Virus record (IMG/VR): IMGVR_UViG_3300005617_000593
Coordinates: 1 to 21,620 of that record
Origin: a virus
Length of the DNA stretch: 21,620 bases
Direction: 5' to 3' (one strand)
Shown: piece by piece, positions 4,106 through 19,208 of the stretch
Layout of the letters: each line of letters begins with the position of its first letter
How positions within the stretch are numbered: position 1 is the stretch's first letter
The notes under the pieces: model-generated
Databases searched by the model: none
What the model was told of the DNA's origin: nothing
The model's input: only the letters and a program-made list of their open reading frames with translations
Position numbers and translations under genes: made by a program

Positions 4106-4211
4106 CAATAAAGTGAAACAGAAAAAATAAAATAAATAGTTGTACATAAAATTTCTATATGTTACGGTAAAAATATATTTTAAACCTATAAAAACACTAC
4201 GAGGTGTATAT

Positions 4212-6179
4212 ATGAGCGGTAAAGATCCTATTCCTAATGAGTTTGCTTACTGTGGAGTAAAAGCAACAGTTCCCCCAAATTTAATTAAAGCTAAAGTCGA
4301 TCCAGGTACTGCTGTGAAGGGGGCAAGAATCGGAGATTTTTGGTTAAATACTGTCACACAATCAGTTTTTCAATTGGTTGGTTTTACTTCTGGTGCTCAG
4401 GTATGGCAAGCAGGAGGAAATAGTAACGCCACTACAACTTCTTTCGGAATAGTTGAATTAGCCACTTTATCGCAATTACAAAACGGTAACGCACCAGCTG
4501 GAGCGATTGTTCCATTATCTAATGATGTAGCCACTGTTATTGCTGGAGTAGTCGCAGGTGCTGGAGTACCAGCCACAACAACACAACAAGGTTACGTTTT
4601 TCTTGAAACAGATGCAAATGCGGTTCTAGGTACAGCTCCGAACGCTAATACAGCATTACAACCAAGTAACCTAGCCGCTGTTTTTGCAGCCCCTCCAGCG
4701 GGTGGTTTTGGTAGTACTACACCTAGACCTGTTGCAGCTACAACTCTTTCGGCATCCGGTGCAACAGCATTAGCAGCTGCTTTAACTGTAGGAACTACAT
4801 TAGGTGTTACAGGCACATCAACGTTAGCAGCCTTAACACAGGTGGGAACAGCAAATATCAATGCCTCAGGAGCCGGTGTAACAACCATCGGAACTGGTGG
4901 AACCGGTGCAGTTAATATAGGTAATGCTACTGGTAACACCGCTGTAACAGGTGCTTTGACAGTAAGTACAACTCTTGGAGTAACAGGTGCCTCGACTATT
5001 GCCGCTCTTTCGGCTACTTCAGGAACCTTTTCTACAACATTAGGGGTTACAGGAGCGTCCACATTCTCATCAGGTACGTTTAGTACGACTTTAGGAGTAA
5101 CGGGAGCCTCTTCGTTTAGTTCTGGTACTTTTAGCACTACTCTTGGAGTTACAGGACTTACAACTTTAGCTGCGTTAACACAAGTCGGGACAGCAAATAT
5201 TAATGCTTCTGGAGCTGCCACAACAAATATCGCTACAGGAGGCACCGGTGTCTTGAATTTGGGTAATGCTACTGGTAATACAGCCCTAACTGGAGCGCTC
5301 ACCATCAGTACGACTTTAGGCGTAACCGGATTAACAACTTTAGCGGCACTCACACAGGTTGGTACGACTTTAATAAACGCTTCCGGAGCTGCTGCAACCA
5401 GTATTGCTACTGGTGGTACTGGAGTGTTGAATTTAGGTAATGCTACTGGCAATACAGCTCTTACCGGTGCTCTTACAATTAGTACTACTTTAGGTGTTAC
5501 TGGCTTGACTACACTTGCAGGTCTAACCCAAGTTGGAACAACGCTTATTAATGCTTCTGGAGCAGCTGTAACAACAATTGGTACAGGAGGTACCGGAGCT
5601 GTCAATATCGGTAACGCAACAGGAAATACCGCAATTACAGGCGCAGCGACAATTAGTACCACATTAGGTGTTACTGGATTAACCACTTTAGCAGCATTGA
5701 CACAAGTAGGCACAACTTTAATCAATGCATCTGGCGCAGCCACTACCACAATAGGAACTGGTGGAACTGGCGTTGTTAATATCGGTAACTCGACTGGAAA
5801 TACTGCCGTCACAGGTTCTTTAACTGCCTCGACTTCTTTGACAGCTACAGCAGGAAATATTACTGCTACAGCAGGAAACTTAGTGATCAACGGATCAGCT
5901 AAATTCCTTTCATGGAAAGGTGGTGCAGTTACTGACTTTAGAGGAACTGGTGTCTTAACAGCAGGTACTCAAACTATTGCAAATACAAACATTGCAACTG
6001 GAGATATGATTTTCTTGACAAGAACCGGTGTGGCCGCTTCTACTACGCTTGGAGAACTTACTTATACCATTTCTAATGGTGCGAGTTTTACTGTTACCAG
6101 CGTTATTATCGGAACTCCGGGCTCAACTCAGACCGGGGATGTATCCACATACGCATATATTATAGTTCGACCAGTGTAA
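4212..6179 (+). CDS. Long repeat-containing tail fibre protein
   Basis: I start this gene at ATG 4212, which has GAGGTG 7 bases upstream; an upstream TTG in frame at 4140 lacks such a site. The 655-residue product has an N-terminal domain (1-75) that probably attaches to the virion, and a known tail-fibre-type repeat (SFGIVELATLSQLQNG...AGAIVPLSNDVA at about 78-108, with a second weaker copy beginning QQGYVFLE). Residues 195-540 are eight units beginning TTLGVTG, rich in Thr, Gly, Ala and Asn, suited to a trimeric beta-helical shaft. The C-terminal domain of about 100 residues (from AKFLSWKGG) is not repetitive and is the likely tip. Receptor binding is inferred. No enzyme motif or chaperone peptidase motif is seen. 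Confidence 0.75.
   Translation: MSGKDPIPNEFAYCGVKATVPPNLIKAKVDPGTAVKGARIGDFWLNTVTQSVFQLVGFTSGAQVWQAGGNSNATTTSFGIVELATLSQLQNGNAPAGAIVPLSNDVATVIAGVVAGAGVPATTTQQGYVFLETDANAVLGTAPNANTALQPSNLAAVFAAPPAGGFGSTTPRPVAATTLSASGATALAAALTVGTTLGVTGTSTLAALTQVGTANINASGAGVTTIGTGGTGAVNIGNATGNTAVTGALTVSTTLGVTGASTIAALSATSGTFSTTLGVTGASTFSSGTFSTTLGVTGASSFSSGTFSTTLGVTGLTTLAALTQVGTANINASGAATTNIATGGTGVLNLGNATGNTALTGALTISTTLGVTGLTTLAALTQVGTTLINASGAAATSIATGGTGVLNLGNATGNTALTGALTISTTLGVTGLTTLAGLTQVGTTLINASGAAVTTIGTGGTGAVNIGNATGNTAITGAATISTTLGVTGLTTLAALTQVGTTLINASGAATTTIGTGGTGVVNIGNSTGNTAVTGSLTASTSLTATAGNITATAGNLVINGSAKFLSWKGGAVTDFRGTGVLTAGTQTIANTNIATGDMIFLTRTGVAASTTLGELTYTISNGASFTVTSVIIGTPGSTQTGDVSTYAYIIVRPV
4794..5831 (+). 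repeat. Eight in-frame protein repeats of the fibre shaft
   Basis: Units start at 4794, 4968, 5034, 5085, 5136, 5310, 5484 and 5658, each with TTLGVTG. Units 1 and 5-8 are exactly 174 bases (58 residues), unit 2 is 66 bases, and units 3 and 4 are 51 bases each (17 residues). Long units share LTQVGT, INASGA, TGGTG and NATGNTA motifs. The short units keep only the first part and end in SGTFS. Protein identity is high, but third codon positions differ strongly between units, so they are poor DNA-level direct repeats. Confidence 0.9.
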
Positions 6180-9010: not shown

Positions 9011-10273
9011 ATGCCTACACCAGGAAATAGCATCAACGAAGCCACAACAGGGATTTGTGGATTCACTGGGACTGCGTTTACTTCTACTCCAGTAACCGCT
9101 CACGACGTCCTTATTGGAGGTTCAACATCAAGTACAATAGCACAAGCAGCCCCTACAGCGACCGCTGGAATACCTTTAGTTTCTGGTGGTTCCTCTGCCG
9201 ATCCATCGTTTACAACAGCAGTGGTAGCCGGAGGTGGTACAGGAGCAGTTACATTAACCGGAGTTTTGATTGGTAATGGCACATCAGCAGTTACAGGAAA
9301 TGCGGTTACTCAACATGATGTGTTAGTGGGCGGATCTTCTAATGCTATTACTTCTGTTGCTCCTTCAGCAACTTCTGGAGTACCTTTTATTTCTCAAGGA
9401 GCATCATCCGATCCAGTATTTGGAACGGCTGTAGTAGCGGGTGGTGGAACTGGAGCTACAAGTTTTACAGCATATACCCCTGTATGTGCGGGTACAACTA
9501 CAACAAACCCACTTCAAAGCGTTGCAAGCATTGGTACTTCTGGTCAAGTGTTGACGTCGAACGGTGCTAGCAATTTGCCTACATTTCAAACAGCTCCTAC
9601 AGGGGTATTTGCTCCTAATGCTAATATTCTTATTTTTGATGATTTCATCGGAACAATCTTTATTTCTGGAAATCAAGCCTTGTTATCACAGCAATCCTGG
9701 ACAACAACAGGAGGTTTTTTCACATCAGTTAGCGTGGCAGCAGGAACAAATCCAGGAGTTGTCGCAAATGGTTCATTTGCAGCAAATGATTCAGACCTGC
9801 GATTAGGTGGTACTTCTTTAAAACCATTTATCTTAGGTGGAGGTGCTTTAACAATAAATTGGATAATTTCACCGGCTATCTTATCAGGTGGAACAAATAG
9901 ATATACCTTACGTTTTGGTTTGGGGGACACCTCAAATGCTGATGAAGCTAACGGTGTATATTTTGAATATTCTGATAATATTAATAGTGGAAACTGGGTT
10001 ATAAAAACAGCCGCAGGTAGTTCTAGAACAACAACAAATAGCTCTACCGCTGTTACAACAGCGTTCCATAATGCTCAGATTTCCATAAATGCGGCTGGAA
10101 CTTCTGCCACTTTTACAATGGATGGCGTTTCTTTAGGGACGATTAATACCAACCTTCCTACACTTGGGATTTGGCCTTTTGTGGATGTAATAAGATCTTT
10201 AGGTACAATTGCCGCATCTTCCGTTATTGTAGATCTATTTTATTTGAACCAGAGTCTAACTACTGCTAGATAA
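9011..10273 (+). CDS. Repeat-containing fibre with lectin-like C-domain
   Basis: This 420-residue protein has two parts. Residues 28-200 are repeats: HDVLIGGSTSSTIAQAAPTA and HDVLVGGSSNAITSVAPSA, each followed by SG...S.GASSDP.F.TAVVAGGGTGA. They resemble a unit in the preceding gene and end with SGQVLTSNGASNLPTFQ. From about residue 205 (ILIFDDFIGTI) to the end is a beta-rich domain with GDTSNADEANGVYFEYSD, WVIKTAAGSSRTTTNSSTAV and ATFTMDGVSLGTI, which has the look of a concanavalin A/LamG-type jelly roll. Carbohydrate binding at the cell surface is inferred. GAGGA precedes the ATG. The 3' end overlaps the convergent minus-strand gene by 18 bases. Confidence 0.65.
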   Translation: MPTPGNSINEATTGICGFTGTAFTSTPVTAHDVLIGGSTSSTIAQAAPTATAGIPLVSGGSSADPSFTTAVVAGGGTGAVTLTGVLIGNGTSAVTGNAVTQHDVLVGGSSNAITSVAPSATSGVPFISQGASSDPVFGTAVVAGGGTGATSFTAYTPVCAGTTTTNPLQSVASIGTSGQVLTSNGASNLPTFQTAPTGVFAPNANILIFDDFIGTIFISGNQALLSQQSWTTTGGFFTSVSVAAGTNPGVVANGSFAANDSDLRLGGTSLKPFILGGGALTINWIISPAILSGGTNRYTLRFGLGDTSNADEANGVYFEYSDNINSGNWVIKTAAGSSRTTTNSSTAVTTAFHNAQISINAAGTSATFTMDGVSLGTINTNLPTLGIWPFVDVIRSLGTIAASSVIVDLFYLNQSLTTAR

Positions 10274-10534
10274 TGATTTTATATGTCGTTTAATTTTCTT
10301 ATTTTTTGATGGCGTGCATTTTTGATATGTCAGTTCAATAGCTAATTTTGCTGATCTTAGTTCGGCTTCTAAAATATAATGCTCCGCCTGCCATTCAGGA
10401 TTTTTTTCCATCTCTTCTTTAATTTGCTTAACTTTATCTTGCATAGCTTTTCTGACTTCGATGCAGCATGAGCAAACCCCTGTCAAAGAAGAAAAAAAGA
10501 AAAATGACAATAAAAAAATTGAAATCAATTTCAC
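10256..10534 (-). CDS. Small secreted Cys protein, family A copy 1
   Basis: A 92-residue product starts at GTG 10534 with GGAG 5 bases upstream. Residues 1-20 are a Sec signal peptide (KLISIFLLSFFFF core), then CSCCIEV (cysteines 21, 23, 24), a charged helical region with EWQAEHYILEAEL, one further cysteine near residue 73 (YQKC), and a basic, Ser-rich tail. It is clearly related to the protein encoded at 10843-11091: both share ISIFLL, CxCCIEV, EWQ, LE, AIEL and KCxP. Four conserved cysteines suggest disulphides outside the cytoplasm. No lipobox is clear. Its 3' end overlaps the convergent fibre gene by 18 bases. Function unknown. Confidence 0.6.
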   Translation of the reverse strand: MKLISIFLLSFFFFSSLTGVCSCCIEVRKAMQDKVKQIKEEMEKNPEWQAEHYILEAELRSAKLAIELTYQKCTPSKNKKIKRHIKSLSSSS

Positions 10535-10561
10535 AAAATCTCCATAGTGTTATTGATAAAC

Positions 10562-10804
10562 TCACCTTAATCGAGGTGGTAATGGATCAAAATCCGGCTG
10601 ATCCATCATAAATTTTATCTGTTCAAAAGCATCGGTATATCCTTCTAAATACTTTAAACGATATGGATCCTTTTCGGTCTTATCTATTCGGATTATTTGC
10701 ATTTCTTCCAATGTTTCCTGGATATAAAAATATGCCTTCTCACAGTTGCATGAGTAGCACAAAGAACTACAAACTATCATGAAGAACAAAATAATTTTTT
10801 TCAT
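10562..10804 (-). CDS. Small secreted protein, family B copy 1
   Basis: I start this at ATG 10804 with AGGG 5 bases upstream; an in-frame GTG lies 6 bases earlier. The 80-residue product has a signal peptide (MKKIILFFMIVCSSLCYS), then CNCEKAYFYI, a helical region with DPYRLKYLEGYTDAFEQIKFMM, and a Pro-rich end (DQPDFDPLPPRLR). It is homologous to the protein at 11119-11352 (shared NCE, FxI, DPY, Y-EGY, IK, MD-P). It sits between two family A genes, so each B gene is followed by an A gene. A periplasmic or surface location is inferred from the signal peptide. I do not recognise a named family. Confidence 0.6.
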   Translation of the reverse strand: MKKIILFFMIVCSSLCYSCNCEKAYFYIQETLEEMQIIRIDKTEKDPYRLKYLEGYTDAFEQIKFMMDQPDFDPLPPRLR

Positions 10805-10842
10805 ATGCACCCTGAATTTTTACTTTATGTAGGATCACTTTT

Positions 10843-11091
10843 TTAAAATTTTCTTTTTTTAATATTAGGATTGCATTTGTGTTTGATCAGTTCTATTGCA
10901 AATTTTGTCCCTTGAATATCCCCTTCTAAATGATAGTAGTTGACTTGCCACTCCAGCTCTTTTGCCAACATTTCCTCAAGTTGAGAAACTCGTTGAATAA
11001 GTAATTTTTTTACTTCTATACAACATGGACAAGTCCCTTCTAATGAAAAAACTGATAAGAATGTCAAAAGAAAAATTGAAATTGTTTTCAA
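10843..11091 (-). CDS. Small secreted Cys protein, family A copy 2
   Basis: The frame starts at TTG 11091, with AAGGAG 9 bases upstream; no ATG lies near. The 82-residue product has a signal peptide (KTISIFLLTFLSVFSLEG), then CPCCIEV with cysteines at 21, 23 and 24, a charged helical stretch (RVSQLEEMLAKELEWQVNYY), and a last cysteine in HKCNP. The cysteine pattern and helix match the family A protein at 10256-10534, but the C-terminal tail is shorter. Both A copies use non-ATG starts, so expression may be low. It follows the family B copy 2 gene by 27 bases in the same minus-strand operon. Confidence 0.6.
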   Translation of the reverse strand: MKTISIFLLTFLSVFSLEGTCPCCIEVKKLLIQRVSQLEEMLAKELEWQVNYYHLEGDIQGTKFAIELIKHKCNPNIKKRKF

Positions 11092-11118
11092 GTTTACTCT
11101 CCTTTTAGTAGGTTAAAC

Positions 11119-11352
11119 TCATTTTTCTCTATAAGGTTTTTGAGCTTGTGGGCTATCCATTATTTCTTTTATATGCTTTAAACAGGCTAAATAGCCCTCA
11201 ACATAATCATTATAAGGATCTTGAGTGTGAGTCAAATCAAATCCCTCTATTTCTGATATAGTTTTATCAATAAAAAAGGAAACCCTTTCACAGTTATAGG
11301 AAAACCCTAATGTAGAGAATGCAAGAAAAAAGATTAAAAAAATATTTTGCAT
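11119..11352 (-). CDS. Small secreted protein, family B copy 2
   Basis: This 77-residue product starts at ATG 11352 with AAAGGAAA 4 bases upstream, and is the first gene of the four-gene minus-strand insert. It has a signal peptide (QNIFLIFFLAFSTLGFS), then YNCERVSFFI, DPYNDYVEGYLACLKHIKEIMDSP, and a short basic tail. It differs from copy 1 in having only one of the two N-terminal cysteines (YNCE against CNCE) and an extra one in ACLKH. A -10-like TATATA lies about 25 bases upstream on the minus strand, with TTGATT 19 bases further, which is a weak promoter fit. Function unknown; a secreted pair with family A is inferred. Confidence 0.6.
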   Translation of the reverse strand: MQNIFLIFFLAFSTLGFSYNCERVSFFIDKTISEIEGFDLTHTQDPYNDYVEGYLACLKHIKEIMDSPQAQKPYREK

Positions 11353-11872: not shown

Positions 11873-12065
11873 TTGCCAATATCTGCCACAACTAGCCCAA
11901 TCATTAGAAGAAATCGAAAATGATACTGCTATCATGGTTGAAGTGGACAAAGAAGCCATGCAAAAAGAAACAGATCTACATATTCTTGTAGATGTGGTTA
12001 ATAAGGAGCCAGTTTCACAACCAGCTCCTATTCAAGTGCCCTTTAAGCCTGCGACTGGGACTTAG
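11811..12065 (+). CDS. Small lipoprotein, o-spanin-like
   Basis: I start this at ATG 11811, which has GGAGGG 4 bases upstream, instead of an earlier in-frame ATG at 11718. The 84-residue product has a lipoprotein signal peptide: basic start (MIKKS), hydrophobic core (LSLLVLLILGG) and a lipobox LSSC with the cysteine at residue 22, followed by Gln, which favours the outer membrane. The mature 63 residues are acidic and helical, then Pro-rich (EPVSQPAPIQVPFKPATGT). Small, Pro-rich outer-membrane lipoproteins that overlap an upstream frame are typical of Rz1-type o-spanins. The upstream frame has no membrane span, so a spanin pair is not proven. The 3' end overlaps recT by 23 bases. Confidence 0.6.
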   Translation: MNMIKKSLSLLVLLILGGLSSCQYLPQLAQSLEEIENDTAIMVEVDKEAMQKETDLHILVDVVNKEPVSQPAPIQVPFKPATGT

Positions 12066-12813
12066 ATTCTTCACGTTTTTTCCATTTTTGGAAATCGGTT
12101 AAGAATTTTTCCCTATCGCTATAATCATCAATGGATTGGACGATTTTCTTCTTCCAATGGGCTGCATATTTCTGTATGTAAGACCTAATCCATTGATGAT
12201 CTGATTCTGGATAATCTTTTAAAAATTCAATCATTCTAGATTCAGCCTCTTCAGCATTTTCTGGACCTTCTTCCGCAGTGATTGTAGAAATTATCTCACA
12301 TTTTGCATCTCTAATTTCGCCTTCTACGTAGGCTGTTCCTATGATGTCAGGGAATAACCGCCTAGCTAGCCTGCTCATCGCTCTAGAATAAAGCATGTCC
12401 TCTGCATAAGATTTCCAGACAGCACGCGAGGCTAATCCCGCACGCTGAGCATCTTCAATTGTAAATTGAGAGGTAAATGTATCTCCGTTGTCAGACCTCT
12501 TTCCTTCTAGAATGCATTTAGTTGCATCGCAGTGTTTCACGCATATGCTATGACCAGCTTTTCTAACCATAGCATTCATTAGTCTAGCCGATATTTCGAT
12601 CTTCCCCTGAATATTCCAAAGTCCTCCATTAAGTGCAGTCATCGGTTTAATTCCAAGTTCCTGAGCTGCAAGAAGAACCATCAAGATTTTTTGCTCGGAT
12701 CCGACTCCTGCATATAAACCAGATGCTGCCGCATTCCTAGCTATAATTTGCATAGTCTGAAAGTCATTTTCTTGAGGTACGTAACTTTGTTTAAGTGCTA
12801 TAGCGTTTTCCAT
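12043..12813 (-). CDS. recT: RecT-like single-strand annealing protein
   Basis: This 256-residue protein matches a widespread phage family usually annotated as RecT-like recombinase. Visible features are LAAQELGIKPMTAL (residues 48-61), IQGKIEISARLMNAMVRKAG (68-87), CILEGKRSDNGDTFTSQFTI (100-119), DAQRAGL (121-127), the strongly conserved W-SYAEDMLYSRAMSRLARRLF (133-154), then DIIGTAYVEGEI. Such proteins bind single-stranded DNA and anneal it to complementary strands during phage replication and recombination. The gene lies directly downstream of a PD-(D/E)XK nuclease, like the Red/RecET pairs. AAAGGAAAGGA precedes its ATG. The C-terminal 85 residues are charged and more variable. Family membership is firmer than the exact RecT label. 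Confidence 0.7.
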   Translation of the reverse strand: MENAIALKQSYVPQENDFQTMQIIARNAAASGLYAGVGSEQKILMVLLAAQELGIKPMTALNGGLWNIQGKIEISARLMNAMVRKAGHSICVKHCDATKCILEGKRSDNGDTFTSQFTIEDAQRAGLASRAVWKSYAEDMLYSRAMSRLARRLFPDIIGTAYVEGEIRDAKCEIISTITAEEGPENAEEAESRMIEFLKDYPESDHQWIRSYIQKYAAHWKKKIVQSIDDYSDREKFLTDFQKWKKREESKSQSQA

Positions 12814-12870
12814 ATTTTCCTTTCCTTTTTATCTTTGTTTTCTATATAGTTGAGGTATCCTGAATTGGAT

Positions 12871-13467
12871 TTACACTAGGGAATCATGAAATTCATGATT
12901 TCCTTTTTTCATAAATTCAATCTCTTTCTGTTTCTTAGACTTATCGAAAAAATTTCTGTAGACATCTAGACATTTTAGAAACAGATCAAAGTTTTCTTGG
13001 TATACATAGCTAATGGGCTCTTTTCCAAATTTGGATATTTTTACAAATTCAATTTTTTTGATGTCATATCCTTCTTTCTTAGCAAGATAGCTATAAGCAG
13101 ATCCCTGCAAGGGCCATGTCTTCCCTTCATTTAAAGAGGTTTTGAAATCGACAAGAACCAATCCATCATTGTCTTCATAAATTGCATCGCATTCTCCTGT
13201 GATCATTAAATCATCACAGAAAAATCTCTTGGGCTTTTCTAAAAATTTTCTAGGAAGCCACTTAAAAAAGCTTTCGACATAACCCTGTAAGCTATCATCG
13301 TAGCTGGATATTCCAATGTTATTGATGAGTGCATCACAGATCTCATGCACTTTTGTTCCTCTGTCAGCGGCCTTTTTTAAAACCTCCACATCAACAACGG
13401 ATAATCCGGAAAAAGGAAAAAGAACTTCTGTAACCCTATCGTAATCTTGAAAATTTCTGGTTGTCAT
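12871..13467 (-). CDS. PD-(D/E)XK exonuclease (RecB/Cas4-like)
   Basis: This 198-residue protein carries the full active-site pattern of a RecB/Cas4-type nuclease: RGTKVHE with His41, GECDAI with Asp94, VDFKTS with Asp107 and Lys109, and the QxxxY motif QGSAY (Gln121 to Tyr125). Such proteins act as 5' to 3' exonucleases that resect DNA ends for the annealing protein encoded downstream. The start overlaps the upstream stop (ATGA) with AGGG 7 bases before it. The basic-acidic C-terminus (KQKEIEFMKKGNHEF) overlaps an inverted repeat at 12878-12909. Role in the leftward operon: the nuclease partner of the RecT-like protein. It is shorter than lambda Exo (226 residues) but complete in motifs. Confidence 0.8.
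   Translation of the reverse strand: MTTRNFQDYDRVTEVLFPFSGLSVVDVEVLKKAADRGTKVHEICDALINNIGISSYDDSLQGYVESFFKWLPRKFLEKPKRFFCDDLMITGECDAIYEDNDGLVLVDFKTSLNEGKTWPLQGSAYSYLAKKEGYDIKKIEFVKISKFGKEPISYVYQENFDLFLKCLDVYRNFFDKSKKQKEIEFMKKGNHEFHDSLV
12878..12909 (+). terminator. Intrinsic terminator for rightward transcripts
   Basis: AATCATGAA (12882-12890) and TTCATGATT (12892-12900) are exact inverted repeats one base apart. They are extended by a G-T wobble and then AGG/CCT, and six T follow at 12904-12909. On the plus strand this is a good intrinsic terminator; on the minus strand no T run follows. It lies inside the 3' end of the exonuclease gene, so it would stop rightward transcripts that read through 12065. 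Confidence 0.5.
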
Positions 13468-13646
13468 AAAAAATCCCTATTGGTTAACATGGTTTTGTCA
13501 TATAGACTCATGACATGACGATGATCTTTTTCTGTCGCATCCAGATCAAGGTCAAGATCACTAAAACAAACGTGTAGATCGCCATCTACCTCTATACCAT
13601 GCAGGGATAAGAGCTCTGCATGGCTATATTGCTCCCAATATAACAT
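13464..13646 (-). CDS. Small acidic protein of leftward operon
   Basis: I start this at ATG 13646, because GGAGG lies 5 bases upstream (13652-13656) and the stop of the previous gene is one base away. A longer frame from 13685 lacks such a site. The 60-residue product is acidic (residues 17-37 contain DGDLHVCFSDLDLDLDATEK) with a short C-terminal tail. Its stop overlaps the nuclease start by ATGA, so translation is coupled to the recombination genes. No known motif is visible. It might regulate or inhibit host nucleases, as small acidic genes beside recombination genes sometimes do, but this is speculation. Confidence 0.6.
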   Translation of the reverse strand: MLYWEQYSHAELLSLHGIEVDGDLHVCFSDLDLDLDATEKDHRHVMSLYDKTMLTNRDFL

Positions 13647-13647
13647 A

Positions 13648-13827
13648 TTAGCCTCCGTAATATTGTTTAAGTTCCCTAATACCATTAGTCATTTTGAACA
13701 CCTCATAAGAATATCTTTCTAACTCTTCGCACACATCTTGACAAAACTTTTTTTCATCTGCCGATGCATTTTCTAAATTTACACAGAGTCTATCCGCAAC
13801 CTCTATGAGTTCATCTAAAGCTGACAT
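13648..13827 (-). CDS. Small helical protein, first gene of leftward operon
   Basis: A 59-residue minus-strand frame starts at ATG 13827, preceded by AAGGAAGGAG 7 bases upstream, the strongest ribosome site in the operon. The product MSALDELIEVADRLCVNLEN... is helical and acidic, with heptad-like leucines in the first 30 residues, CQDVCEELERYSYEVFK in the middle, and GIRELKQYYGG at the end. It ends one base before the next start. It is the promoter-proximal gene, where lambda-like phages place antiterminators or small host-takeover proteins; it lacks an arginine-rich N-arm like lambda N, so antitermination is not supported. Family not recognised. Confidence 0.6.
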   Translation of the reverse strand: MSALDELIEVADRLCVNLENASADEKKFCQDVCEELERYSYEVFKMTNGIRELKQYYGG

Positions 13828-13883
13828 TTTTTCACTCCTTCCTTGACGTTTTTTACTAGGTCCTTTACAATCATCTTGAACCT

Positions 13884-13912
13884 ACCATAACATGTTTGGT
13901 ATTTTCACACAA
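13884..13912 (-). promoter_or_regulatory. Leftward early promoter
   Basis: On the minus strand TTGTGT (13907-13912) and TATGGT (13884-13889) are 17 bases apart and point to the leftward recombination operon. The site overlaps the rightward promoter at 13896-13924, so one protein bound there could control both. The untranslated leader can form a 7-pair hairpin (TAGGTTC with GGACCTA). Confidence 0.5.
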
Positions 13913-13924
13913 TATATTTATGAT
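13896..13924 (+). promoter_or_regulatory. Rightward promoter of the HTH regulator
   Basis: TTGGTA (13896-13901) and TATGAT (13919-13924) are exactly 17 bases apart, about 29 bases before the ATG at 13953. Its -35 lies inside the spacer of the leftward promoter. The palindrome AACATGTT (13889-13896) is centred near the -35 and could be an operator. A GG-TTTGTAT-like half site follows on the other strand (13921-13930). Confidence 0.5.
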
Positions 13925-13952
13925 ACAAACCAAAAAAAGTTAGGAAATCTCT

Positions 13953-14237
13953 ATGAAATTAAAAGAATATCTTGATGAATATGGAATCCCAATGACAGTT
14001 TTTGCACGAAAAATTGGAGTTTCAGATGCGACAATTTCCAATATACTTTATCGCGATAAAGACTTAAGGCTCAGTACTGCATTGCGAATTGAGGCAGTCA
14101 CCAAAAGCCAAGTTACGTGCGTTGAATTGCTACCTGCTAAGTTCCTTTCTTTCTCACCTAAAGAAAAATTAAATAAAACCAATAACAGAAAAAATATGAA
14201 CGAAAAGAAGATGGAACATCCCAAAAAACCTAAGTAA
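13953..14237 (+). CDS. Small HTH (Xre/Cro-like) regulator
   Basis: This 94-residue protein has an N-terminal Xre/Cro-type helix-turn-helix: MKLKEYLDEYGIPMTVFARK then IGVSDATISNIL, with the turn at GVS (22-24) and recognition helix at 25-32, followed by STALRIEAVT. The C-terminal 30 residues are basic and disordered (KLNKTNNRKNMNEKKM). It lacks the protease-type C-terminal domain of lambda CI, so it is a Cro-like switch or short repressor and not a RecA-cleaved one. It is encoded opposite the leftward operon, with overlapping divergent promoters. TTAGGA precedes the ATG. Which phase it favours (lytic or lysogenic) cannot be read from sequence. Confidence 0.75.
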   Translation: MKLKEYLDEYGIPMTVFARKIGVSDATISNILYRDKDLRLSTALRIEAVTKSQVTCVELLPAKFLSFSPKEKLNKTNNRKNMNEKKMEHPKKPK

Positions 14238-14414
14238 AAAAGTGTTAAAAGAGTTTGTCGTAAGTTTATCCAATAGATTTCGCATATATTCTCCTAAAAA
14301 CATAGGTAAGAAAATTTGTCATCTCGAAAAACTTTCAATTTAATTCTTTACGCTTTATCGTAGGAAATCGAAGAGAAAAAGAAAAGGTGTAATTTTTCTC
14401 AACTAAAAAAAGTG

Positions 14415-15218: not shown

Positions 15219-16379
15219 ATGGCGTTAGCAATCCCGATTATTGACCTAGAACAGATCAAAATATCTTCAAAAGAATTGAGTTCTAAAAGTGATTTTGATA
15301 GAGTCGCTGAAAAAGGAAAGCCAGAGTCTGTAAACTCTGGCTCTATCAATCATCGAGATTCCGGCGAAGAACTCAAAGATGGAACTAACAACAACTCCAT
15401 CTTAGCAGTCTCACCGAATTTCTACAAGCAAAACGGTGAGTCTGTGGCAAATTCTGGTTATTTCATCATACCTCGATCGGTTACCTCTGATCCTCGGTAT
15501 CAGTCCGCTAGACTCAAATATAAACATGTCCTCCACATTCTTTTTGAGAATGTCGCGTTTGCACCCACAACCCACGCCATAGGAACCGAAATTATTCCCA
15601 TAGGTATTGGTCAGTTTTGTGTAACTGTTCGGGGTTTAATGGATTTGTGCAATGTAGGTGTCAAATTTAAAGAAGATAAAGTGGATAAAAACACCATCGA
15701 GCGCGCGTCTCACTTTTGGCGGACATGTGGATTTGTGAGACAAGAAGTGAGACACGGTAAAATCATTCTAACTATCACTGTACCAGAGTTTTACATCAGA
15801 TCAAAAACACAAAGTGAGACAGGAAGTGAGACTAAAGTGAGACTAAACCGAGACACTAAAGAAGAAGATAAAGAATATAAGAAGAAGAATAAACATCCCC
15901 AAACCCCTTCTTTTTCAATTCCTGAAAAAATCAAGTTCCGAGAAAACGTACAACTTACCCAAACTGAATTTGATTCGCTTGTTGAGATGCACTCAAAGGA
16001 TTTCGTTGATAAAATGCTAGACACTCTCGACTCTTACAAAGGCAGTAAAGGTGTGGAATATAAGTCAGATTTTCATGTCATGAAAAAAGGCAGTTGGCTG
16101 TTTAATCGAATTAAAGATGAAGAACTTAAGTCTAATTTTTGCTCTTCTAAAAATTCAGAAGCGAATGAATCGTTAGCTAGAGAAATAGAAAAAAAATATT
16201 CTGATTTCACTAAAGGTTGGCGTTGTAGGATATATAACGACACGATAAAAGATCAAAAAGGGCTTCTCTTTGAACCTCAGAGCCCTTATGTAAAAGGGGA
16301 ATTCACTGCATTTTCTAATGTAAAATTCCGGGAAGAAGTATCTAGGTTACTAAAAATAAAGAACATGGGAGAAATATGA
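15219..16379 (+). CDS. Replication initiator-like protein (lambda O-like layout)
   Basis: This 386-residue protein has a disordered N-terminus (1-78), a folded DNA-binding-like domain (80-195) starting YFIIPRSVTSDPRYQSARLK, with GQFCVTVRGLMDLCN as a possible HTH (131-145) and TCGFVRQEVRHGKIILTITVP as a wing-like beta hairpin (169-189), a charged linker (196-232), and a C-terminal domain (245-300) with LTQTEFDSLVEMH and SKGVEYKSDFHVM, like the C-terminal part of phage replisome organisers (DnaD-like). The gene contains iteron-like repeats over its linker, as lambda O does. It likely binds those repeats and loads the host helicase; inferred from layout. The start is weakly supported (GAGTG 7 bases upstream). 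Confidence 0.6.
   Translation: MALAIPIIDLEQIKISSKELSSKSDFDRVAEKGKPESVNSGSINHRDSGEELKDGTNNNSILAVSPNFYKQNGESVANSGYFIIPRSVTSDPRYQSARLKYKHVLHILFENVAFAPTTHAIGTEIIPIGIGQFCVTVRGLMDLCNVGVKFKEDKVDKNTIERASHFWRTCGFVRQEVRHGKIILTITVPEFYIRSKTQSETGSETKVRLNRDTKEEDKEYKKKNKHPQTPSFSIPEKIKFRENVQLTQTEFDSLVEMHSKDFVDKMLDTLDSYKGSKGVEYKSDFHVMKKGSWLFNRIKDEELKSNFCSSKNSEANESLAREIEKKYSDFTKGWRCRIYNDTIKDQKGLLFEPQSPYVKGEFTAFSNVKFREEVSRLLKIKNMGEI
15319..15342 (+). repeat. Perfect 9-bp inverted repeat in initiator gene
   Basis: AGCCAGAGT (15319-15327) and ACTCTGGCT (15334-15342) are exact inverted repeats with a 6-base loop CTGTAA, 100 bases after the ATG. No T run follows, so it is not a terminator. It may be an mRNA hairpin that slows translation, or a protein-binding site. 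Confidence 0.5.
15707..15904 (+). other. Putative replication origin with iteron-like repeats
   Basis: GTGAGAC occurs at 15735, 15747, 15814, 15826 and 15837, with a variant CCGAGAC at 15848; starts are 11-12 bases apart within each cluster, about one helical turn. An inverted copy GTCTCAC is at 15707 and another at 15408. The five exact copies are read in two different codon frames (Val-Arg and Ser-Glu-Thr). An A-rich, low-GC stretch (15855-15900) follows and could melt. The whole sits over the linker of the initiator-like gene, as in lambda O. Confidence 0.55.
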
Positions 16380-18806: not shown

Positions 18807-19208
18807 ATGGGTACTAGCGGCGTTCTTTTAGATAAAGACAAGATAATCAAGGCTTTACAAGACAATAAAGGCGTTATCGAATGGGCTGCAAAAGCAGTCC
18901 CTTGTGATCCAACCACCATTTACCTATGGTTAAGAAGAGACCCTGATGTAAAAGATGCATTGGAAAAAGCTCGTGCAGAACGAGATATCCAGCTTATCGA
19001 TGAAAATAGACTCCTTAAAGAGAAAGCCTACAAATCAGCAAATAGATTGCTCGATAAGAACGACTGCACAATGACGATCTTTACTTTAAAATCCCTTGCT
19101 GGATTTACTGACAACAAGAAAGATGAAAATAAAACCTATACTGTGAACTTTGTTACTCAGCCCTGGAAAGATGAAAACGATACAAATTCCTCACAAGTTC
19201 CTGTGTAG
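18807..19208 (+). CDS. terS: Terminase small subunit
   Basis: This 133-residue protein has an HTH-type N-terminal domain: DKIIKALQDNKGVIEWAAKA, then VPCDPTTIYLWLRRDPDVKD and a basic helix (ALEKARAERDIQLIDENRLL). This G-i--aA--lgc---ti--wl-rdp---al pattern is common in phage small terminases and recognises the packaging site. The gene directly precedes, and overlaps by 38 bases, the large terminase. AAGAG lies 5 bases before the ATG. The C-terminal tail (DNKKDENKTYTVNFVTQPWK) probably contacts the large subunit. Packaging-site location is not visible in the window. Confidence 0.75.
   Translation: MGTSGVLLDKDKIIKALQDNKGVIEWAAKAVPCDPTTIYLWLRRDPDVKDALEKARAERDIQLIDENRLLKEKAYKSANRLLDKNDCTMTIFTLKSLAGFTDNKKDENKTYTVNFVTQPWKDENDTNSSQVPV

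Follow-up and report, generated by a model that had tools for sequence, protein, structure and literature searches.

A candidate replication origin within the coding sequence of its presumed initiator in an IMG/VR virus record

The record and its initiator gene

The window analysed here is the whole of IMG/VR virus record IMGVR_UViG_3300005617_000593, a stretch of 21,620 nt that probably represents part of the genome of a tailed phage whose portal is P22-like. On its plus strand, positions 15219-16379 hold an open reading frame (ORF) of 386 aa that is assigned as an initiator (replisome organizer) by its match to PHROG 13246. The match is partial and covers the C-terminal part alone, residues 207-309 aligning with profile positions 134-229 of 250 (E 4.2e-15). 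The protein comprises, in order, an N-terminal extension, a winged helix, a linker, and a C-terminal domain. A protein search of phage records returned a single weak C-terminal match, to the replisome organizer of a Faecalibacterium phage, and none to Bacillus phage SPP1; a protein search of viral contigs and plasmids gave no match. Family models had no direct match to the N-terminal half, for which PHROG 2514 was reached via alignment and a homologous gene on another viral contig (L122, described below). An earlier, sequence-only reading of this DNA had proposed a new initiator family. That proposal does not stand, given the C-terminal match to PHROG 13246 and the match of the L122 product to PHROG 2514, a DnaD-like helicase loader family (E 4.6e-7).

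The winged helix is encoded on the plus strand at 15456-15788 (residues about 80-190), as placed by alignment and by an AlphaFold model built with the relatives. In the model the helices of the helix-turn-helix (HTH) span residues 137-145 and 157-170, and the wing strands residues 173-178 and 181-186. No solved structure proved close to this domain; the matches are weak ones to generic winged helices, with those of the transcription regulators CodY, HlyU, and MecI among the nearest. PHROGs and Pfam searches of the larger ORFs downstream of the initiator in the fragment revealed neither a helicase nor a loader gene.

The remainder of the record holds several further features. The minus strand carries a recombination module (12043-14237) with a RecT-like annealing protein and a PD-(D/E)XK exonuclease, and after this pair comes a divergent XRE/YdaS-like regulator (13953-14237). 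Four small ORFs at 10256-11352, also on the minus strand, have signal-peptide-like starts and Cys motifs (CSCCIEVRK, YSCNCEKAYF, CPCCIEVKK, and YNCERVSF) and alternate as two related pairs; the set looks like a duplicated two-gene unit. A 679-aa ORF at 4140-6179 is made up of GTLGVTG / GTGGTGAVNIGNATGNT repeats and probably encodes a tail-fibre or appendage protein. Close to the start of the small terminase gene, which is home to the packaging site in some P22-like phages, lies a tandem repeat with a 19-bp unit in 2.1 copies (18838-18876). No RNA families or tRNAs were detected across the 21.6-kb record.

Repeats in the wing and linker coding sequence

The heptamer GTGAGAC occurs nine times in the whole record against 1.22 +/- 1.28 expected, and nine copies were reached in none of 100 shuffles. 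Seven of these copies lie in the initiator ORF, five direct and two inverted. Together with one variant the direct copies form an array of six sites at 15735-15854, all on the plus strand. Sites 1 and 2 (15735-15741 and 15747-15753), both in codon phase 0, encode residues 173-178, VRQEVR, which form the first wing strand in the AlphaFold model, with site 2 reaching into the turn. The other four lie in the linker: sites 3 and 4 at 15814-15820 and 15826-15832, both in phase 1, site 5 at 15837-15843 in phase 0, and the variant CCGAGAC, site 6, at 15848-15854 in phase 2. Spacings between successive sites are 12, 67, 12, 11, and 11 bp. The earlier description of two clusters, with five exact copies and one variant in steps of 11-12 bp within clusters, is thus accurate. 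Its placement of the repeats within the linker applies to the second cluster alone, because the first pair encodes the DNA-binding wing, and its count of two codon frames rises to three, the phases (0,0,1,1,0,2) covering all of them with the variant in phase 2. The two inverted copies that it listed are both present on the minus strand. Membership in the array is doubtful for the one at 15707-15713, while the one at 15408-15414, about 300 bp upstream, is probably outside it; neither has a counterpart in L122.

The copies exceed what the protein sequence would require. When the protein was held fixed and codons were drawn from the usage of the record, 5000 synonymous shuffles gave at most three direct GTGAGAC copies. 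Correction for the post-hoc choice of heptamer, by admitting any heptamer with at least three G+C, gave five copies in one of 3000 shuffles, and by the same composition limit (at least three G+C) the GTGAGAC cluster is the densest heptamer cluster of the whole record. A test over all heptamers in the wing and linker fell short of significance (p=0.44), since AAGAAGA of the A-rich tract and other A-rich words are equally frequent there.

Directly after the last site follows an A-rich tract (15855-15900, plus strand), a candidate DNA-unwinding element. The 60 nt from 15844 (15844-15903) are 58% A and 70% AT, and the A content is higher in 56 of the 21561 60-nt segments of the record. The adjacent A-rich stretch noted earlier is therefore real, and an A-rich patch recurs in the alphaproteobacterial relatives discussed below, where, in initiator genes of 59% G+C, the 60 bases past the last site are 57% AT vs about 36% in the surroundings. 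The protein across the tract is K/E-rich, and cause and effect are not separable here. The cumulative GC-skew minimum lies at 14359, 1.3 kb from the sites, a value that refers to a 21.6-kb fragment only and is confounded by gene orientation.

The arrangement in related initiators

The sole homologue of the initiator gene that was found, L122, lies on another viral contig and has 36-40% identity. It was detected through the DNA motif, so that the presence of the motif is not independent evidence, while its layout is. L122 contains six sites spaced 12-55-12-11-11 vs 12-67-12-11-11 in the record, with identical codon phases (0,0,1,1,0,2). Sites 1 to 4 are GTGAGAC in both genes; at sites 5 and 6 L122 has GTGGGAC, twice, at equal spacing. 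The amino acids of VRQEVRH and SETGSET are identical between the two proteins, and the segment across sites 5 and 6 reads VRLNRD in the record vs VGQEWD in L122, where the DNA is nevertheless iteron-like. Among residues identical in the two proteins, codons are also identical at 13 of 14 iteron positions vs 23 of 41 elsewhere (Fisher p=0.011). On the L122 contig an ORF with a P-loop, DnaC-like as judged by eye, adjoins the initiator.

A wider comparison was made with 44 non-redundant alphaproteobacterial phage initiators, which were entered through one motif match (L052) and gathered by protein similarity, not by motif. They align with the protein of the record over the winged helix and linker at 15-28% identity, and the winged helices of several match PHROG 2514. 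At the wing position VRQEVRH of the record stands opposite IETVxETG of the alphaproteobacterial proteins. The DNA behind each is a pair of GAGACA words 12 bp apart, read with a frame offset of one nucleotide (15735-15755 compared by inspection with L125), and through this offset one DNA word yields different amino acids. In a second structure model the GAGACA pair again codes for the first wing strand. Over the 44 genes there are 191 hexamers of the types described below vs 36.9 expected from synonymous shuffling, with values below 0.05 for 38 of the 44 individually. A conservative test admitting any heptamer was below 0.05 in 19 of 44 initiators vs 0 of 74 control stretches in other genes; lambda O, used as a positive control for this test, gave p=0.053. 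Selection at the DNA level, as the sequence-only reading had claimed, is upheld by the synonymous shuffling and by the agreement of L122 and the 44 genes. Its proposed check, that the heptamers be kept while the amino acids change, came out favourably in L122 and much more strongly in the alphaproteobacterial genes.

The 44 genes fall into groups, termed dialects here, by the word that they repeat: GAGACA, GAGGCA, or GGGACA; one gene (L163) is without a clear array. Most genes use one word in almost all of their copies, with E-T changing to E-A and D-T to G-T along the gene; some GGGACA genes also have copies of GAGACA, in the linker. Dialect is matched by two residues of the HTH. In the motif SxRD, the residue before RD is Q in 15 of 15 GAGGCA genes and in 0 of 28 others, which have V, I, or T. 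At the DRxK position, six of six GGGACA genes have P, S, or N, where the GAGACA and GAGGCA genes have D. In the structure model the two residues fall where the two HTH helices start. At the aligned positions the initiator of the record carries V137 and D156, as in GAGACA genes. The rule is not strict, because L122 has Y and E at these positions yet uses GTGAGAC. In trees of low support, built without the dialect-residue columns, dialect changes 8-10 times, with one independent pair alone on well-supported branches, and by the AU test one common clade of all GAGGCA genes was not rejected (p 0.17 for protein, 0.15 for DNA). The association is thus complete in this sample, with an uncertain number of independent events that may be few.

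Profile searches extended the set to distant relatives from two sources, alphaproteobacterial genomes and those of the class to which a Lachnospiraceae locus (L237) belongs. Their words include CCGGCAC, CAAGCGA, GTACAAC, GAACAAC, and AACCAAC, and 12 of the 22 tested fell below 0.05. The most extreme array seen is in L356, a distant relative in a bacterial genome, with about ten CCGGCAC in wing and linker. Over 61 initiator genes, the commonest hexamer of the linker recurs in the wing in 37 vs 12.6 expected, a result to which the record and L122 add nothing, their commonest linker hexamer being A-rich. These patterns raise the prospect of a large superfamily of phage initiators with the origin inside the wing and linker of its reader, in which the word and one or two residues at the HTH starts would switch together to yield a recognition code and incompatibility groups; we regard this wider proposal as an even bet.

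The self-encoded origin and its alternatives

Since lambda it has been known that an origin can lie within an initiator gene. The O genes of lambda and lambdoid phages carry direct iterons and an AT-rich tract mid-gene, where extra iterons lengthen the protein, and synonymous changes to the iterons abolish origin function in plasmids (PMC7466680). In Bacillus phage SPP1, oriL lies within gene 38, which encodes the replisome organizer gp38 (PMC6316719). As in origins of this kind, the record has clustered direct iterons inside an initiator coding sequence, kept at the DNA level, and an A/T-rich tract adjoining them. The likeness to the origin inside gene O, drawn in the sequence-only reading, is well supported. 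With a probability of roughly 80%, judged from sequence and analogy, the array at 15735-15854 would be a theta-replication origin inside the gene of its own initiator and read by the N-terminal winged helix of that protein. In the proposed mechanism the winged helix would bind the six direct sites of GTGAGAC type, which within clusters follow one another at about one helical turn (11-12 bp), and form with them a nucleoprotein complex. This complex would strain or melt the A-rich tract at 15855-15900 directly downstream, and the C-terminal domain would then recruit the replicative helicase or its loader. We infer each of these activities, namely protein binding to the iterons, melting, helicase recruitment, and origin activity itself, by analogy with the known systems. 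For the binding step, the match between dialect and HTH residues in relatives lends indirect support.

The arrangement also departs from those systems. Lambda has four 18-bp iterons with starts 20-24 bp apart at about codons 117-145 of O (NC_001416 annotation), whereas the record has six sites of a 7-bp word in steps of 11-12 bp within clusters, with the first two of them coding for the wing itself. The record therefore falls outside lambda proper, which is defined by iterons of 18-20 bp about 20-24 bp apart and by a P-like helicase-loader gene beside the initiator; no P-like gene was recognised downstream in the fragment. SPP1 differs in having a second origin, oriR, outside the gene, together with the loader gp39 and the helicase gp40, none of which was seen in the fragment. 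The arrangement would be a distinct variant of the self-encoded origin, in a gene of known initiator families (PHROG 13246/2514), and what appears to set it apart from lambda, as judged from the sequences, is the 7-bp word, the single-turn steps, the sites in wing-coding DNA and, in relatives, the HTH-matched switching of dialect.

Sites of this kind could instead serve the initiator or another phage protein mainly in regulation or attachment, for instance in self-repression, and not in starting replication. A regulatory role would suit a domain whose closest solved folds are the transcription-regulator winged helices of CodY, HlyU, and MecI, and DNA-level selection alone is silent on which protein binds. 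The array, however, is found some 500 bp into the coding sequence and not at a promoter, the adjoining A-rich tract resembles the lambda and SPP1 origins, and the family annotation is replisome organizer or helicase loader, all of which makes a mainly regulatory array improbable. It is very improbable that a disordered repetitive linker and a conserved wing motif were selected as amino acids, with the DNA repeats a by-product. Such linkers are often repetitive, and VRQEVRH and SETGSET are unchanged in L122, but codon uniformity far exceeds what synonymous choice permits, the sites use three codon frames, and relatives encode the same DNA word one nucleotide off with other amino acids. Barely credible is an origin of the repeats as a functionless young tandem duplication or slippage product. 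Tandem Repeats Finder does report an 11-bp unit in 3.3 copies at 15811-15847; against this, the spacers vary from copy to copy, L122 retains the layout of six sites, with the first pair set apart, at 36-40% identity, and most copies switch together in relatives.

If the array is an origin, part of it would encode the wing of its presumed reader. This is unusual, and no earlier report of wing-encoded iterons was found in the open-licence papers searched. Also unusual are the use of two reading frames for one DNA word at a single position of the gene, and the joint switching of word and HTH residues in relatives. Should the origin reading be confirmed, the sequences of many uncultured phages could directly reveal their origins and the specificity of these, and the family would offer a ready-made system for the co-evolution of a protein and its binding site, both written in the same bases.

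The GTGAGAC word is also found in other settings. A scan of public DNA for pairs 12 bp apart returned mostly a conserved RRETWGET-like coding motif and chance matches. Triple-repeat matches in bacterial genomes were mostly simple repeats within unrelated genes, and for this reason the word alone is not diagnostic. Six other contigs (L110, L290, L293, L297, L299, and L260) have GTGAGAC clusters in both orientations, several of them in non-coding DNA, and these may represent another kind of protein-binding array. Two initiator-like genes of a further type (L012 and L073) carry GTGAGAC arrays that encode ETVSETLSET-like linkers; L012 matches PHROG 186/678, and the word thus recurs in a more distant initiator.
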